Positions 29,053-41,755 of a stretch of 64,000 nt of DNA are shown piece after piece. The DNA comes from Herbinix sp. (GTDB lineage Bacteria; Bacillota; Clostridia; Lachnospirales; Lachnospiraceae), in the NCBI GenBank assembly GCA_029240245.1, contig JARBTJ010000013.1, positions 62,001 to 126,000 of the forward strand. The letters run 5' to 3'. Every line of letters begins with the position of its first letter. Position 1 is the stretch's first letter. The position numbers and the translations under genes are program-made. The notes below the pieces were generated by a model. That model had not been told where the DNA came from and made no database searches. It was given only the letters and a program-made list of their open reading frames with translations.

Positions 29053-30771
29053 TTGAAGGAAAAAGAAATAAAGAATAACAGAAGAGGAAATGAAAAAGAA
29101 ATTAACAAAGCAAGTATAGATTTAAAAGGTGTTAAGATTATACCGCTGGGTGGACTCGAACAAATCGGAATGAATATAACAGCAATTGAGTATGAGGACA
29201 GCATCATTGTTATTGATTGTGGTTTATCCTTTCCGGAGGATGAAATGCTGGGAATTGACTTGGTAATACCCGATGTCTCTTACCTAAAGGATAACATTGA
29301 TAAGGTGAAGGGCTTTGTAATAACCCATGGTCATGAAGATCATATCGGGGCTCTGCCTTATATTTTGAAGGAAGTAAATGTGCCCGTTTACGCCACAAAG
29401 CTTACGATCGGAATTATAGATAATAAACTGAAGGAACACAATTTATTAAAGAACACTAAGAGAAAAGTAATTAAATATGGACAGTCTATTAACCTTGGGT
29501 GTTTTCGCATCGAATTTATCCGCACCAATCACAGTATGGCCGATGCAGCGGCATTGGCTATCTTTACACCAGTAGGAATATTGTTCCATACCGGAGATTT
29601 TAAGGTTGATTTCACGCCGGTATTCGGTGAACCCATAGATCTACAGCGAATAGGTGAAATAGGTAAGAAGGGTGTTTTAGCACTAATGTGCGATAGCACG
29701 AATGTGGAACGTCCTGGATACACTATGTCCGAGCGTACGGTTGGAAAAACCTTTGACAGCATATTTGCTGACAATTCGAAGAATAGAATCATTGTTGCTA
29801 CCTTTGCATCAAATGTTGACCGAGTACAGCAAATTATCAATTCTGCTGTGAAGTATGGCAGGAAGGTTGTCATTGAAGGCAGAAGCATGGTAAATGTCAT
29901 CACGACAGCCACAGAGCTTGGGTATATTAAAATGCCGGATAATATGCTGATTGACATCGAACAGATGAAAAATTATACGGACGACCAGCTGGTTCTGATT
30001 ACAACCGGTAGTCAGGGAGAATCCATGGCAGCATTATCGCGTATGGCAGCCTCAATTCATAGAAAGGTTACCATCCAGCCGGGTGATGTGGTAATATTAA
30101 GTTCAACACCAATCCCCGGTAATGAAAAGGCAGTCTCAAAGGTAATCAATGAATTATCTATGAAGGGTGCTAAGGTGATTTATCAAGATACCCATGTATC
30201 CGGACACGCCTGCCAGGAGGAAATCAAATTGATTTATTCCCTGACAAAACCGAAATATGCTATACCGGTACACGGCGAATACCGTCACTTAATCCGCCAT
30301 GCTGAGCTGGCACAGGTAATGGGAATACCAAAGGAAAATATATTCATTCTATCTTCCGGTGATGTTCTGACAATGTCGGAGGAAAAGGCAGCGATTACCG
30401 GAGAGGTACAGGCTCAGGGTATTTTAGTGGATGGCCTTGGTGTCGGAGATGTAGGTAATATCGTACTCCGTGACAGACAGCTGCTATCCGAAAACGGATT
30501 AATCATTGTCGTGGTATCCTTAGAAAAATTCAGTAATCAGGTAATGTCCGGACCCGATATCGTTTCCCGAGGCTTTGTATACGTGAGAGAGTCAGAAAAT
30601 CTAATGGATGAAGCCAAGGACGTAGTAGATAAAGCGCTTAATAAATATTTGAGTAAGAATAATGCCGACTGGGGCAAGATGAAGACTGAAATAAAGGATT
30701 CCTTAAGTGATTTCATCTGGAAGAAGACAAAGAGAAATCCGATGATTCTTCCGATCATTATGGAAGTATAA
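29053..30771 (+). CDS. rnj: Ribonuclease J (chromosomal copy)
   Basis: TTG start with GGAGGTG upstream; IKIIPLGGLEQIGMN, THGHEDHIGALPYI, FHTGDFKVDFTP, DTHVSGHACQEEI, PVHGEYRHL. Confidence 0.96.
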   Translation: MKEKEIKNNRRGNEKEINKASIDLKGVKIIPLGGLEQIGMNITAIEYEDSIIVIDCGLSFPEDEMLGIDLVIPDVSYLKDNIDKVKGFVITHGHEDHIGALPYILKEVNVPVYATKLTIGIIDNKLKEHNLLKNTKRKVIKYGQSINLGCFRIEFIRTNHSMADAAALAIFTPVGILFHTGDFKVDFTPVFGEPIDLQRIGEIGKKGVLALMCDSTNVERPGYTMSERTVGKTFDSIFADNSKNRIIVATFASNVDRVQQIINSAVKYGRKVVIEGRSMVNVITTATELGYIKMPDNMLIDIEQMKNYTDDQLVLITTGSQGESMAALSRMAASIHRKVTIQPGDVVILSSTPIPGNEKAVSKVINELSMKGAKVIYQDTHVSGHACQEEIKLIYSLTKPKYAIPVHGEYRHLIRHAELAQVMGIPKENIFILSSGDVLTMSEEKAAITGEVQAQGILVDGLGVGDVGNIVLRDRQLLSENGLIIVVVSLEKFSNQVMSGPDIVSRGFVYVRESENLMDEAKDVVDKALNKYLSKNNADWGKMKTEIKDSLSDFIWKKTKRNPMILPIIMEV

Positions 30772-33727: not shown

Positions 33728-33808
33728 TTTTAAGAGGGATAGGCACTTTATGTCAATAACACACATATGATAATAACGAGACATTAAGCATTGAGGGTGC
33801 TTATCTTC

Positions 33809-34090
33809 GTGAAATCGTTTCCCAAGCCGTTAAACACCAAGGAAGAAGCTGACTATCTGCGACGTTGCAAGGAAGGCGATAAAGAAGCAAGAGATAAACT
33901 AATTGAACATAATTTGAGGTTAGTAGCTCACATTGTAAAGAAATACAATATGGTAGATAAAGAAACAGACGACTTAATATCGATTGGTACTATCGGATTG
34001 ATTAAGGCAATCGATACCTTTGATGATGAGAAAGGGATTCGTCTGGCGACTTATGCCTCCCGCTGTATTGACAATGCAATGCAATCATAA
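33809..34090 (+). CDS. sigK: Sporulation sigma factor SigK, N-terminal half (SpoIVCB-like), interrupted by skin element
   Basis: FPKPLNTKEEADYLRRCKEGDKEARDKLIEHNLRLVAHIVKKYNMVDKETDDLISIGTIGLIKAIDTFDDEKGIRLATYASRCIDN, then ends in AMQS*. GTG 33809 with GAGGGTG upstream; TTG 33791 is an alternative start. Confidence 0.93.
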   Translation: MKSFPKPLNTKEEADYLRRCKEGDKEARDKLIEHNLRLVAHIVKKYNMVDKETDDLISIGTIGLIKAIDTFDDEKGIRLATYASRCIDNAMQS

Positions 34091-34183
34091 CGGCGCATTT
34101 GGACCATTATAATGTAACATCATATGAATGATTCGGTTATTCCTGACAAAGTAATTAACGGTATCATAAGGCCTGTAATGAAG

Positions 34184-34369
34184 TTATGGAGTAACAATTA
34201 GTCTGGCACACTGTTCACAGACGGATTTCATAAGAGCACATTTTTGCTCCACCGGGTAAGGTAAACGATTGATATAATCAAGAATGAAATCCGCGTAGAT
34301 TTTAGCTGCGTTTATTTGAAGTTCCTCCTGCGCATTCTGTGATTTTGGATCATGTACAATGACTTCCAT
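34184..34369 (-). CDS. Small skin-encoded protein, candidate recombination directionality factor
   Basis: MEVIVHDPKSQNAQEELQINAAKIYADFILDYINRLPYPVEQKCALMKSVCEQCARLIVTP; AAAGGAA about 9 nt upstream of this ATG. Role inferred from location only. Confidence 0.6.
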   Translation of the reverse strand: MEVIVHDPKSQNAQEELQINAAKIYADFILDYINRLPYPVEQKCALMKSVCEQCARLIVTP

Positions 34370-34409
34370 AGCATCCATTTCCTTTCTGATTTAAATTTAT
34401 ATTAAAGCT

Positions 34410-34474
34410 ATTGCGAAACTCATATTCTGTATTAATTGCGCACACAACATATACCACTCCGGAGCGGAAGTTAA
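34410..34474 (+). repeat. Dispersed intergenic repeat, copy B (inside skin element)
   Basis: attgcgaaactcatattctgtattaattgcgcacacaacatataccactccggagcggaagttaa. Confidence 0.85.
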
Positions 34475-34687
34475 GTCCGCATTCCCTAAACATATCTATA
34501 GATCAGCATATGCCGACGTGAATGTCCATTATAAGGAAAATTGAAATTATTTCCTTTAATTAGATTTTACATATGCTTTACATATTGTTGTACGTAAATA
34601 GTCAGATAGTTTGATAACATAAAATGGAATAGAAGCAATTGACCCATTGCTTGATTATCATTCTATCTATTTTACGGAGGCTGACTT

Positions 34688-36691
34688 ATGAAGAGCATAA
34701 AAACAAAACTAATATTTTCCTTCTCGATCCTAGTATTATCGGTTACCCTTATCACCGGCATTATTTCAATAGCGGCGGGATACCGGTCACTTAAGCAGGA
34801 AGCGGAATATTCTTTACAACTGCTGGCTATGCAGGGAGCGAAATTGACGGAAAGCAGAATGATATCTTTCCTATCAACATTAAACATCCTTGCACAGAAA
34901 TCAGAGATCATCAATATGGGTTGGGAGGTCGATGTTACTGAGTTGAAGGAGGAGCTTGCAAAGGTAGATTTTATCGATATAGGATTTGTCCAGTCCAGTG
35001 GTTATACCTATTATTCGGACGGTACAGTAAGACTGATGAGCGACCGGCCATATATCAAAAGTGCACTGGAAGGAAACGAAGAAATATCCGATGTGATCAT
35101 CAGTAGGGTGACCAGGAAACCAGAGATTGAGGCTGCTGTTCCTATATTTAATGAAGGTGAGGTTATTGGAGCATTGGTAGGCCGGATGGAGGCAGACTCA
35201 CTAAGCGATATAACTAAGGATATTGGCTTTGGAACAAAGGGATATTCGTTTATGATTAATAAGGAGGGAACGATAATTGCACATCCGGATACGGACATCG
35301 TTTTAAAACGATTTAATCCGATCAAGGAAGCAATCGATCTTCCGGAACTTAAGGATCTTGCGCAGGTATATCAAAATATTATTCAAGAAGAGGCAGGAGT
35401 CACTTATCTTGAAGAAAATGAAAAAGATTTTTATGCAGGTTATGCCTCAATCGAAGGAACAGAATGGAAATTCGTGATAACAGCAGACCAGATGGAGGTT
35501 ATGTCTTCCCTTCCTAAGATGGTTCAAATGATTATCATCATCATGATTGTTGTATTCGTTTGCAGCATAGGGGTTGTATATCTTTTGGATCACACATTTA
35601 CCAGACCGTTAATTGAAATTACAAAGCAGTCTAAAAAGATTGGAGAACTCGATATTCGGGAGAATATAGAGCAAACATTTTTAAAACAAAAGGATGAAAT
35701 CGGAACACTTGCCAAGGCATTTCAAACACTTACCACTAATCTACGGGTAATTATCACCGAAATAACCGATTCAGCAAATCAGGTTTCGAATACGGCACAG
35801 GAACTGTTTACCTCCTCCCAGCAATCCGCTTCAGTCTCGGAGGAAATATCACGAACGGTAGAGGATATCGCGCATAGTGCGATGGAACAGGCAAGTCACA
35901 CCGAAGCCGGCTTATCAAAAGCAGCTTTATTAGACAATAAAATTGAGGCGAATCACGAATATGTGTCCAATTTAAACTCTACTACGACACAGGTCACGAA
36001 CTTGATCAATGATGGTTTAATTGAGATCGAAACATTAACCAGGTTAACAAACGATAACGATCTGGCTACGAAAAAGTCGTGTGATCTAATGCAGAAAATG
36101 AAACAAAGCTCAGTGAAGATTGGTGACGCAAGTAAGATAATATCAGAAATGGCAAGTCAGACGAACCTTTTAGCTTTGAATGCTGCGATCGAGGCTGCAA
36201 GAGCCGGAGAAGCGGGGAAGGGGTTTGCGGTTGTAGCAGAAGAGATTAACAAGATGGCTACCCAGTCCGCCGAGTCCACTCGTCATATCAATGCCATTGT
36301 AAAAGAGCTTCAACAAAACATAGCAAGTGCATTTGACAGTATGAATCAAAGTCTGGTTACTTCACAGGAGCAACAAAAGGGCGTAGCGGATACCATACAA
36401 AAATACAAGGATATTTCGAAAGCGATGAAGTATTCAGAAACAGCCGTGGAACAATTAAATCTTTCGGAAAAGGATATGGGAATTGCTAATAATGAGATCA
36501 AATTAATGTTGCAATCCTTATCAACGATAGCTGAACAGAATGCTGCCGGTTCTCAGCAAGCGGCCTCCTCCATGGAAGAGCAGACAGCCACAGTTTTGGT
36601 GGTGGCAGATATCTGTGACCGATTAACACAATTATCAGAGAATTTAAAAAATACGATAACCAGATTTCAAATATCAGAGGAGAATCAGTAA
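34688..36691 (+). CDS. Methyl-accepting chemotaxis protein with extracytoplasmic Cache-type sensor
   Basis: N-terminal TM, sensor domain, second TM, HAMP-like region, signalling hairpin [42 protein letters not shown]. Confidence 0.95.
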
Positions 36692-36810
36692 TTGATTGAG
36701 CAGAATAATATAGGGTTGTCGCTAAATTGATATAGAGTGGTCTCAAAATTGATTGGTTGGGCTGTCGCAAATTTGCTATAATAATCAACGAAAGTTGGTA
36801 TTAATAATTA

Positions 36811-36860
36811 ACGGGGAAGCAAGGATGATTTATTTGCTTCCCCGTTTGTTATTTTCTATC
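36811..36860 (+). terminator. Terminator-like hairpin downstream of MCP gene
   Basis: ACGGGGAAGCAA ... TTGCTTCCCCGT (perfect 12-bp stem) followed by TTGTTATTTTC. Confidence 0.8.
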
Positions 36861-37269
36861 TTTTCTATCATGCGGCAGTTCTAAGTTATATTTATCGTGT
36901 TATACATTTATAATGTTTCACTCAAGCTCATTTCAGGATTTTAGCAAACCATTGGTAAGATTCTATATAATGTCTGCCTCTTCTTTTTCTGTGAATATAA
37001 TAACTAAAGCCAATGAAAATTGATAATAATATTAATAAAATGATAAACTTTATGATCATAAGCCCCTGCTCCCTTATAAGAACTGAATTATATTGGGTTA
37101 CAATAACATTTTAGCATTTGAATTATCAGAGGACTATCATGGTGCTGTTAAGTATGTGTAAATAAAAGGTAAAATTGTTTTGATGAGGTAGATTTCAATA
37201 TTGATAAAAAGCATAATGAGGTGGTAAATCGTATAAGTTATAAAGAAGTAATCCTCAGGGAGTAAAATT

Positions 37270-38925
37270 TTGAAAAAGTCAGTCGCAATCTATTCACGTA
37301 AATCGAAGTTCACAGGTAAGGGAGAGAGTATAGAAAATCAGATTGAACTATGTAAGCAGTACATAGATAATGCCTATGATAAAGAATCGATTGAGTTGTT
37401 CATTTATGAAGATGAGGGGTTTTCAGCAAAGAATACCTTCCGACCTCAGTTTCAGACAATGCTTCAGGAGGCAAAAAAGAAGAAGTTTTCGGTTCTGGTA
37501 TGCTATCGTCTGGATCGAATTAGTCGTAATGTGAGTGATTTTGCAAATTTAATCGAGGAATTGCATCAGCTTGGAGTTGATTTTGTCTCCATAAAAGAAA
37601 AGTTTGATACCAGCAATCCAATGGGCCGGGCAATGATGTACATATCCTCTGTATTCGCACAGTTAGAGCGGGAAACGATAGCTGAGAGAATCAGGGATAA
37701 TATGTACGAGCTTTCGAAAACAGGCAGGTGGTTGGGTGGAACTACCCCAACCGGCTATACAAGTGAAAGCATTGAGAGGGTATCCGTTGATGGTAAACTT
37801 AAGAAAGCTTGTAAATTAAAAATAATACCGGAAGAAGCCCAGATGATCAGCCTAATATTTAAAACTTACCTAGATACAGGTTCACTGACGAAAACGGATG
37901 CCTATTTAATACAAAAGAAATATAAAACGAAGAATAAGAAATACTTTACCAGATTTGCAATCAGGAGTATCTTATCAAATCCGGTCTATATGATCGCTGA
38001 TCAAGAGGCTTATCGATATGTGATTGACAAAGGTATGAATCTCTTTTCCGAGGAAAAAAGCTTCGATGGGAAACGCGGCCTGATGGTGTACAATCGGACA
38101 CAGCAAAGAGATGGAAGGGCTCATAGGGTAAACTCTATGCAGGAATGGATTGTGTCCGTAGGCAAACATGAGGGCATCATCACGGGGAACGACTGGATAA
38201 AGGTTCAGGAGCTTTTAAGTATCAATCAATCAAAATCCTACCGGAAACCACGGAGCAATACCGCAATATTATCCGGGGTGTTGATTTGTGGTAACTGCGG
38301 GGACTATATGAGGCCGAAAATGTCAAAAGGTTATACCGAAAATGGAAATAGGAGCTTTTATTATTTATGTAACAGGAAGGAAAAGAGCCATGGAGATTGC
38401 TGTAATATGATAAATTTAAATGGTAATAACAGCGATGCCGCTATTTGGGAGGAGTTGTGCAAACTGTTTAAAGTTAATACATATTTTATAAGGCAGATGG
38501 AGAGTCTTTATCAATCCTTTGAAAGGAATAAGAAGGAGCATATATCTGATCTTGTACGTTTGAAAAAGCTTATGAAAGAAAATGAAAAGGAAATTTCTTT
38601 ACTGGTGAATGCATTGGCGTTATCAACGGAAAGTACAGCCAACCAATATATCTTGAAGCAGATAGAAGAATATCACGAAAAGAGAGAACAGCTACAGAAG
38701 CAGCTGGAAGAGGCAGAAGCACAGAATAATAAAAATGAAGCATCCGATACGGAACTGTCTGCAATTGTAAGTTGCATGTTTGATGCGACTACTCTCTTTG
38801 ACAAAGCATCGGTAGAGAGCAGACGCAGGATGATTCGTAAGTTGGTTAAAAAAGCTGTTTGGGATGGGGTGGATGTACACCTTTATTATGATAATGAGGT
38901 ACAGGAAGTGTTTCCATCAAACTAA
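37270..38925 (+). CDS. spoIVCA: Large serine recombinase, SpoIVCA-type skin excisionase/integrase
   Basis: TTG start with CAGGGAG upstream. VAIYSRKSKFTGKGESIENQIELCKQYI catalytic Ser, YRLDRISRNVSDF, SSVFAQLERETIAERIRDNM, recombinase domain, zinc ribbon CGNCGDYM...CNRK, C-terminal coiled coil. Lies between the two sigK halves. Confidence 0.93.
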   Translation: MKKSVAIYSRKSKFTGKGESIENQIELCKQYIDNAYDKESIELFIYEDEGFSAKNTFRPQFQTMLQEAKKKKFSVLVCYRLDRISRNVSDFANLIEELHQLGVDFVSIKEKFDTSNPMGRAMMYISSVFAQLERETIAERIRDNMYELSKTGRWLGGTTPTGYTSESIERVSVDGKLKKACKLKIIPEEAQMISLIFKTYLDTGSLTKTDAYLIQKKYKTKNKKYFTRFAIRSILSNPVYMIADQEAYRYVIDKGMNLFSEEKSFDGKRGLMVYNRTQQRDGRAHRVNSMQEWIVSVGKHEGIITGNDWIKVQELLSINQSKSYRKPRSNTAILSGVLICGNCGDYMRPKMSKGYTENGNRSFYYLCNRKEKSHGDCCNMINLNGNNSDAAIWEELCKLFKVNTYFIRQMESLYQSFERNKKEHISDLVRLKKLMKENEKEISLLVNALALSTESTANQYILKQIEEYHEKREQLQKQLEEAEAQNNKNEASDTELSAIVSCMFDATTLFDKASVESRRRMIRKLVKKAVWDGVDVHLYYDNEVQEVFPSN

Positions 38926-39528
38926 ATGTATCTATGCTTTTATAAGTCCTTTAAATATATTGAGAAAATTTATTGACATCATTCAAACTAAGTAAATTTG
39001 TTTAAAAATTCAAAAAAGAAAATTTATGTTTCAAAATAAAACAAAGTAAATTTATGTTTAAATCATGTCTAAATTTCAGTCTAAATTTCAGTAATAAGAA
39101 AATTATTGACTTTTTAGATTAGTTACTGATATAATGAAGACACTTTTTTGTTCGGATTTTATTAATTGTTATAATATATCGGCCACGGGCAAACTTTTAA
39201 AAGATTGTCTTATCATAAATAGTAATAAGATAAACGGTATTACAATATGATAATTCAATTTTATGAAAAGGAGCAAATACAGTGGATATATTATAGTAAT
39301 TGGTTTTATGTCAAAAGGTGTTGCGTAAATTAACAGCTATATGGATAAACAAGCAAGCTTGCATGCAATCGTAATAAATAATAGCCGGAAAGCACCGAAG
39401 GTATTTTGGCACTTTAATCATTAAATATAATAGCACATAATATTTGTGACATTTGGAAAAATTAATCCATGGTATATTGTTATATTTTTAATATTATTCA
39501 GATCAAAATTAAACATTGGAGGTATCTA

Positions 39529-41205
39529 TTGGATAACAAAACGGAAGATATAAAAGTGAAAAAAATTAAAATTATTCCACTAGGTGGATTAGATAGAATC
39601 GGTATGAATATTACTGCTTTTGAATACGAAGATAGTATTATAGTCGTAGATTGCGGCATATCATTTCCGGATGAGGATATGTTAGGGATTGATTTAGTAA
39701 TCCCGGATATCACATATTTAAAAGAAAATAAAGAGAAGGTAAAAGGCTTTATTATTACACATGGGCATGAAGACCATATTGGAGCTCTGCCATATATTTT
39801 AAAGGAATTAAATGTTCCTGTTTATGCAACGAAATTAACCATTGGTTTAATTGAATATAAACTGAAGGAACATCATCTGTTAAAGAATACAAAAAGAAAA
39901 GTCGTAAAACATGGAAATTCAATTCATTTAGGCGACTTTCGAATTGAATTTATTAAGACAAATCATAGTATTGCTGATGCATCAGCACTTGCAATTTATT
40001 CTCCTGCCGGTATTATTGTGCATACTGGGGACTTTAAGGTAGATTATACTCCTTTATTTGGTGATGCTGTAGACTTACAAAGATTCGGTGAAATCGGTAA
40101 GAAGGGTGTGCTTGCTCTTCTATGTGATAGTACAAATGCACAAAGACCCGGATTTACGATGTCAGAGACTATGGTAGCGAGAACATTTGATAATCTATTT
40201 GCTGAGAATAAAACCAACCGAATTATCGTTGCAACGTTTGCATCAAATGTTGATCGTGTCCAACTAATCATTAATACTGCGCATAAAACCGGAAGGAAGG
40301 TTATACTGCAAGGTAGGAGCATGGTTAATGTAATCGATATTGCATCGGAATTAGGTTATATTAAAATACCGGATAATACCTTAATCGATATCGAACAAAT
40401 GAATAATTACCCGGATGAAAAATTGGTATTTATCACCACGGGAAGTCAAGGGGAAGCCATGGCTGCACTTTCGAGAATGGCGGATTCAACCCATAAGAAG
40501 GTTAGTATAAAGCCGGGTGATCGAATAATCTTTAGTTCTACCCCAATACCAGGTAATGAAAGGGCTGTATCGAAGGTGGTAAATGAATTATCCAGGAAGG
40601 GTGCAAAAGTAATCTTTGAAGATACTCATGTATCGGGACATGCTTGTCAAGAAGAAATTAAATTGATCTATTCCTTGATAAAACCCAAATATGCAATTCC
40701 TGTTCATGGTGAATATAAGCACCGTACGGCTCAGGCTGACTTGGTTAATAATCTAGGAATCAAAAAAGAAAATATATTTATTCTGCAGTCTGGTAATGTT
40801 TTGGAACTTTCCGAGGGAAATGGCAAAATTATAGATCAGGTTCCTGCGAAAGGGATTTTTGTTGACGGGTTAGGAGTAGGAGATGTCGGTAATGCAGTTC
40901 TTCGAGACAGACAGCAACTATCAGCAAATGGTGTGATTATAATTGTACTAAGCTTAAATAAAATCACGAATCAAATTCTGAATAAACCGGATATTATATC
41001 CCGCGGGTTTATCTATGTAAGGGAATCGGATCAATTAATGGCTGAAGTAAAAGAAGTAGTTAATAATTCGGTGGATAGATGCATAAAGCATAATTTAAAG
41101 GACTGGGGAAAAATAAAGATGGAAATCAAAAATGACCTCAGCGAATTTTTGTGGACTAAGATGAAGAGGAGTCCAATGATATTACCAGTCATCATGGAAG
41201 TATGA
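39529..41205 (+). CDS. Second ribonuclease J, encoded in the skin element
   Basis: TTG 39529 with GGAGGT upstream. Near-collinear with the 29053 RNase J; IKIIPLGGLDRIGMN, THGHEDHIGALPYI, HTGDFKVDYTP, DTHVSGHACQEEI, PVHGEYKH retained; same C-terminus ...PMILPVIMEV. Confidence 0.95.
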   Translation: MDNKTEDIKVKKIKIIPLGGLDRIGMNITAFEYEDSIIVVDCGISFPDEDMLGIDLVIPDITYLKENKEKVKGFIITHGHEDHIGALPYILKELNVPVYATKLTIGLIEYKLKEHHLLKNTKRKVVKHGNSIHLGDFRIEFIKTNHSIADASALAIYSPAGIIVHTGDFKVDYTPLFGDAVDLQRFGEIGKKGVLALLCDSTNAQRPGFTMSETMVARTFDNLFAENKTNRIIVATFASNVDRVQLIINTAHKTGRKVILQGRSMVNVIDIASELGYIKIPDNTLIDIEQMNNYPDEKLVFITTGSQGEAMAALSRMADSTHKKVSIKPGDRIIFSSTPIPGNERAVSKVVNELSRKGAKVIFEDTHVSGHACQEEIKLIYSLIKPKYAIPVHGEYKHRTAQADLVNNLGIKKENIFILQSGNVLELSEGNGKIIDQVPAKGIFVDGLGVGDVGNAVLRDRQQLSANGVIIIVLSLNKITNQILNKPDIISRGFIYVRESDQLMAEVKEVVNNSVDRCIKHNLKDWGKIKMEIKNDLSEFLWTKMKRSPMILPVIMEV

Positions 41206-41291
41206 AAAGAATTATGAAAAGACTAGATTTTTGGAAAGAAGTCTAAATTGTATACCATCGGAGATTCATTTAGCCATAATCGAGCCGTCAT

Positions 41292-41663
41292 GTGAGTATA
41301 GCAAATGAGCTTTTAATGATGCTCAGAAGCGGAAAACGTTTAGCGAAAGAAGTATATCTGTATGATCCAATCGGATCTGATCGGGAAGGCAACGAAATTA
41401 ATCTACTGGATATCATTGAAGAAGCAGAAGTTGATATTGTAGAAAATATTGTATTAGAAGATGATATTAAAAAACTTTATTGTATTATCGGAAAAGTATT
41501 AACGGATAGAGAACGCGAAATTATTTGCTTGCGTTATGGCTTAAGTAACCGCAAAGAAGTAACTCAACGGGAAATTGCCAACAAACTCGGTATATCCAGA
41601 AGTTATGTCAGCCGGATCGAGAAAAAAGCCCTAAAGAAGTTGCGAGAATGCTTTGAACAGTAG
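41292..41663 (+). CDS. sigK: Sporulation sigma factor SigK, C-terminal half (SpoIIIC-like)
   Basis: [40 protein letters not shown]...[15 protein letters not shown]...[30 protein letters not shown]: sigma-70 regions 3/4. Confidence 0.95.
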   Translation: [123 protein letters not shown]

Positions 41664-41755
41664 GAAACTGATATGCAACTTCTTTGGAAGGTTGCGAGAA
41701 TGCTTTGAACAACCTCCATAATACATCTGTGTCGCTAACCGAACTTTAAAAGTGT

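Follow-up and report, generated by a model that had tools for sequence, protein, structure and literature searches.

A 7.2-kb element between the two halves of sigK in a Herbinix genome, probably excised in the mother cell

Introduction

According to a 2017 paper, elements that interrupt sigK occur among spore-forming members of the Bacilli and Clostridia (PMC5595907). For excision of the C. difficile element in E. coli, the recombinase and a 72-aa recombination directionality factor (RDF) under sigma-E/SpoIIID control are both required and together suffice (PMC5025042); the skin element of B. subtilis requires the 64-aa protein Skr (PMC6957869). The elements of these two species were reported to occupy different sites in sigK (PMC5025042).

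Here we analyzed a 64,000-nucleotide stretch of a Herbinix sp. contig (hereafter, the window) in which sigK is divided by a 7.2-kb element. We consider it very likely that this is a sigK-intervening (skin) element from which sigK would be rebuilt in the mother cell by a recombinase acting with a small factor. This kind of system is known; set against the open-access literature searched, the member in the window, the breadth of its family, the shared partner protein, and the cargo are new, although the breadth may have been published elsewhere.

Results

The two halves of sigK form one reading frame when joined at AATG

The two sigK halves lie on the same strand (Table 1), and their AATG cores are 7,231 bp apart, a distance equal to the size of the element. 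The split, its coordinates, the shared AATG, and the 7.23-kb length claimed in a preliminary description of this DNA were all present. The frame of the 5′ half runs into a stop at 34090, within the element, and joining the halves at AATG yielded an in-frame gene of 89 + 118 = 207 codons from GTG 33809. The preliminary description had counted 95 + 118 codons from TTG 33791, which is the same frame; this TTG overlaps a putative ribosome-binding site, TTGAGGGTG, and the ribosome-binding–like GAGGGTG at this position is retained in most relatives. Thus, TTG 33791 is probably not the start of sigK, and GTG 33809 is its most likely start. Farther upstream, nearly all of the Herbinix sequences aligned ahead of sigK retain CATANNNTA and vary at the three inner bases; this region is the putative sigK promoter of the sigma-E/K type. 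At the other end of the gene, its last ~20 bp (TTGCGAGAATGCTTTGAACA) are duplicated directly after the stop codon (window 41640-41715).

The joined 207-aa protein passed the SigK equivalog model TIGR02846 (310.6 bits; cut-off, 298.65), bearing out its proposed identity, and scored far under the cut-offs of the SigE, SigF, and SigG models. It has no pro-sequence. Its identity to one-piece SigK was 85-96% in 23 same-genus genomes and 74% in one further genome, and this closeness argues that the split is not a chance arrangement. The preliminary description held that an intact second sigK elsewhere would speak against its reading; none was found in the searched assembly (147 contigs, 77% complete), where a sigma-factor search returned the two sigK halves, a SigE-like gene on contig C131, and more distant sigma factors.

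Table 1. Coordinates of features at the sigK locus (positions in the window) and of two related elements in Herbinix
Feature	Coordinates	Strand	Remarks
Chromosomal RNase J, outside the element	29053..30771	+	Upstream neighbor of sigK, as in relatives
Putative mother-cell (sigma-E/K type) sigK promoter	33745..33772	+	AC ... CATATGATA; consensus match only
5′ half of sigK	33809..34076	+	Codons 1-89 plus base 1 of codon 90; starts at GTG
Left crossover core AATG (attL)	34073..34076	+	
attL inner arm (CAATGCAATCATAACGGCGCATTT)	34077..34100	+	Imperfect inverted repeat with attR arm
64-aa small protein, candidate RDF	34184..34378	-	Homologues in related loci
Cargo methyl-accepting chemotaxis protein	34688..36691	+	dCache, HAMP, MCP signal
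Large serine recombinase, 551 aa	37270..38925	+	Resolvase, Recombinase, Zn ribbon
Cargo second RNase J	39469..41205	+	Full domain set; 72% identical to chromosomal copy
attR inner arm (TCGAGCCGTCATGTGAGTATAGCA)	41280..41303	+	
Right crossover core AATG (attR)	41304..41307	+	
3′ half of sigK	41304..41663	+	118 codons once joined
Second gene-intervening element	L086 1229-5135 (G000:C46:94000-101000)		3,778 bp; interrupts an ABC-transporter ATPase gene within its Walker A motif
Same ATPase gene, split at same Walker A position	L217 2969-8581 (G015:C27:250000-263000)		Second Herbinix species

Most Herbinix relatives carry an uninterrupted sigK at the same locus

The search for an uninterrupted sigK in relatives, which had been proposed as a check, covered 34 Herbinix genomes: sigK was in one piece in 24, split in 3, partial in 2, and without a match at the threshold used in 5, and several of the seven genomes lacking a full match are fragmented assemblies. 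In the one-piece relatives, sigK occupies the same locus and represents the empty site, with AATG or AACG uninterrupted. The split copies belong to the window's genome and to two others, G002 and G029, and the three elements carry three different cargos: a GGDEF/EAL-type protein in G002 and a Na/phosphate-symporter–like and a cupin-like protein in G029 (all named from sequence by reading). In a quick tree, the three recombinases clustered (SH-aLRT 91), with those of the window and G002 grouped at SH-aLRT 100.

In G002, a sister species, the recombinase frame continues into the 3′ half of sigK, the inner arm of attR gave no match, and a stretch of ~100 bp next to the core is absent from the 5′ half. 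Because of this missing stretch, excision at AATG in G002 would not restore the SigK frame; the loss may reflect decay or an assembly fault. G002, with its truncated 5′ half, mismatched attR arm, and unrestorable frame, thus resembles what would be expected if a mobile element had inactivated sigK, excision had been lost, and the strain no longer completed sporulation, and the extra DNA between the recombinase and attR of the window element could be read in the same way. For the window we judge such inactivation improbable, since its sigK halves, cores, arms, recombinase, and small ORF are all intact and the halves remain near the one-piece SigK of relatives.

The recombinase and attachment sites define a clostridial family

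The large serine recombinase that the preliminary description placed between the halves was found there, with matches to PF00239, PF07508, and PF13408 and to PHROG 95 integrase, and its motifs were invariant across four aligned sequences. The nearest phage integrase, from a Terrisporobacter phage, showed 47.6% identity over 72% of the query. We scanned named genomes with the recombinase alignment and took the 80 nearest loci across Clostridia. In 72/80 of them (73/81 including the window), the recombinase was directly followed by a sigK 3′ half of the same orientation. Under even sampling of the class, a recombinase scored above the chosen threshold in 23/393 genomes, and most of the loci from these 23 again adjoined sigK-like sequence. 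Family elements with both ends visible measured 2,654 to 11,508 bp; contrary to the earlier suggestion, the window element is not unusually short.

Pairing between the attL and attR inner arms extended over 13/24 positions (shuffle p=0.006), and the same geometry occurred in nearly all bounded elements of the family: an AATG core with arms close to GAGCCGTTAGGTGAGGATAGCA and CTATCCTATCATAACGGCTT, which pair as an imperfect palindrome at a constant offset. The attL inner arm of the window diverges more than the family consensus, which we counted against the skin-element explanation. In 54/72 related elements, the TGA of the right core (AATGA) is the stop codon of the recombinase, so that the circle released by excision would encode an extended recombinase (by 0 to 132 residues among bounded elements). 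The position and orientation of the recombinase, the core, and the palindromic site are common to the family, many members of which also encode the small protein described below, and on these grounds the window element is a typical sigK-intervening element.

Near-identical recombinases were found in different bacterial families, for example in Holdemania and a Lachnospiraceae MAG and in Faecalibacterium, Oscillibacter, and Anaeromassilibacillus, which implies transfer between them. Faecalibacterium prausnitzii is generally regarded as non-sporulating; in one of its genomes (L126), a recombinase close to those of sporeformers lies beside a sigK-like 3′ half that is only 35% identical to that of the window.

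A conserved small protein is a likely excision partner

Homologues of the small protein encoded near the 5′ half of sigK, 55-75 aa long, were present in ~28 related loci, usually on the opposite strand and likewise near the 5′ half, and shared the pattern MxIIVHxP...ELxxxxAxxHA...YIxKLxCPxEQK. AlphaFold modeled the window copy confidently as a two-helix hairpin (pLDDT 88.7). The protein had no match in NCBIfam or PHROGs, a Foldseek search with the model gave no structural match, and comparison of the small ORF with phage records returned nothing useful. A PDB search with the alignment of the small proteins returned a single match, the designed solenoid protein 9HNH, which we judged spurious.

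We searched 200 bp upstream of the small genes for sigma-E–like sites. The best sigma-E–like -10 element lay 15-50 bp from the start codon in 21/25 non-redundant genes (shuffle expectation, 4.8; maximum, 11 in 200 shuffles), although, the loci being related, the 25 cases are not independent tests. The window copy is one of the four genes without such a site at the fixed place; its best-scoring match lies elsewhere, and we counted this against the skin-element explanation. The pattern used for SpoIIID-like motifs had no match ahead of the small genes. Judging from position, size, conservation, and the expression signal in the family, the small protein is likely the excision partner, or directionality factor, of the recombinase.

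The cargo consists of host-type genes, including a second RNase J

The window element carries a chemotaxis receptor and an RNase J rather than a defective prophage of the B. subtilis skin type, and no phage structural or replication genes and no conjugation genes were found among its cargo ORFs. The cargo RNase J is full length, with metallo-beta-lactamase, beta-CASP, RMMBL, and C-terminal domains; it passed TIGR00649 (627 bits; cut-off, 400) and fell under the stricter RNase J1 cut-off (710.7 vs 820 needed). The window's genome thereby has two RNase J copies, and no same-genus relative shows more than one. The recombinase and attR are separated by 2,379 bp in the window vs at most 212 bp in the other elements, and among 73 elements the cargo RNase J is the only gene in this interval, a further point that we counted against the skin-element explanation. 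None of the other sigK elements examined contained an RNase J.

In a quick tree, the cargo RNase J had a long branch and grouped with other Lachnospiraceae (SH-aLRT 97), and its grouping with Herbinix was not rejected (p-AU 0.305). It may be an import from outside the genus or a fast-evolving duplicate, the tree supporting neither decisively. Our best guess is that it would serve vegetative cells and be dropped by the mother cell upon excision. With cargo of this host type, one may ask what advantage there is in keeping genes on DNA that the mother cell would discard.

Inspection by eye of other loci revealed further genes of this sort. Six elements in Lacrimispora and related bacteria (L105, L115, L119, L128, L132, and L148) have [NiFe]-hydrogenase–like subunits between the sigK halves, L105 with Hyp-type maturation genes as well; an alpha-galactosidase–like gene occurs in several of these hydrogenase-bearing elements and also in L122 and L135; and the [Clostridium] viride element (L153 986-11685) has genes resembling panB and panC. 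At another locus in the same order (L084 7659-10088, G037:C33), an apparently frameshifted RNase J is convergent to sigK, and this sigK appears broken into two frames.

These observations bear on whether the element merely uses sigK as its attB and excises for its own transfer, free of developmental control. The transfer implied by the near-identical recombinases is consistent with such a life, which we nevertheless regard as still less probable than inactivation, given cargo ORFs devoid of conjugation or phage structural genes and a sigma-E–like site that precedes the small partner genes in the family. Least credible of all is an assembly artefact that joined an unrelated piece within sigK, since, for all the fragmentation of the assembly (147 contigs, 77% complete), a single 145-kb contig spans both junctions, which coincide exactly with attachment sites typical of the family, and two other Herbinix genomes have elements in sigK.

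A related element splits an ABC-transporter ATPase gene

Contig C46 of the same genome encodes a recombinase 40% identical to that of the sigK element, in a second gene-intervening element (Table 1) with a related 61-aa small ORF and a glycoside-hydrolase–like cargo gene. When the ATPase halves were joined at GGTAA, the motif GPSGCGKST was restored in an in-frame 258-aa protein. In the second species, the element at the same position encodes a recombinase with 72% identity and a similar small ORF of 63 aa, and its cargo is a chemotaxis receptor. Most other Herbinix genomes have an uninterrupted ATPase gene. We tentatively raise the idea, which is at present rather doubtful, that one recombinase/small-protein family serves two gene-restoring excisions in Herbinix, in sigK and in the ABC-transporter ATPase gene. 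If sigma-E did run both, irreversible switching-on of the transporter would be confined to the mother cell and would lie outside the classical sporulation genes.

Discussion

The sigK gene of the window is split, its frame is restored upon joining, and its halves are bounded by paired cores with inverted arms. A large serine recombinase lies between them, one-piece relatives supply the empty sites, the arrangement is conserved across a family, and no other sigK was found in the assembly. From this anatomy we infer how a skin element at this locus would work, including that it is excised, in which cells and when, and what the small protein does. The recombinase alone would insert the element, attP x attB, at the AATG in the sigK codons ...RCIDN and E. 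This may be the same place, at the codons for RCIEN and E, as that of the B. subtilis skin insertion. Vegetative cells and the forespore would retain the element, so that SigK, which has no pro-sequence, could not be made. In the mother cell, where excision probably occurs, sigma-E–dependent synthesis of the small directionality factor (the candidate at 34184-34378, minus strand) would let the recombinase join attL and attR, releasing a 7.2-kb circle and rebuilding the 207-codon sigK, which would be expressed from the mother-cell promoter of the sigma-E/K type. The element itself would be passed on to the spore.

Seen more widely, sigK elements of one family, with the attachment site and a group of candidate RDFs in common, are widespread in Clostridia. 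This breadth opens mother-cell excision to testing in many anaerobes and supplies new integrase/partner pairs.

Among described systems, the C. difficile skin element (CD1231, CD1234) likewise splits sigK and combines a large serine recombinase with a small partner protein. SigK of C. difficile also has no pro-sequence, and excision is probably the main control (PMC5025042). Compared by description, that element is larger, at 14.2 kb (PMC3789829), and has other cargo. The small protein of the window can be likened in position, size, conservation, and expression signal to CD1234 (PMC5025042) and to Skr of B. subtilis (PMC6957869). The B. subtilis system (SpoIVCA, Skr) has an RDF of 64 aa (PMC6957869), the same length as the window protein. 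There, the genes for the RDF and the recombinase overlap, whereas the small gene of the window is on the opposite strand, at the other end of the element; the window element also differs in that the B. subtilis skin is a defective prophage and that pro-SigK processing there adds further control. In Bacillus cereus ATCC10987, the gin element is likewise gene-intervening and has no phage genes, and a serine recombinase together with a small factor excises it during sporulation (PMC5595907); unlike the window element, it spans 28.6 kb, lies in gerE, and has three recombinases. The sigK elements of Lacrimispora, Flavonifractor, Oscillibacter, Sporomusa ovata, Herbinix, and other clostridia have recombinases of the same family (50-66% identity), the core, arms, and orientation seen in the window, and often the small protein too, with cargo unlike that of the window.
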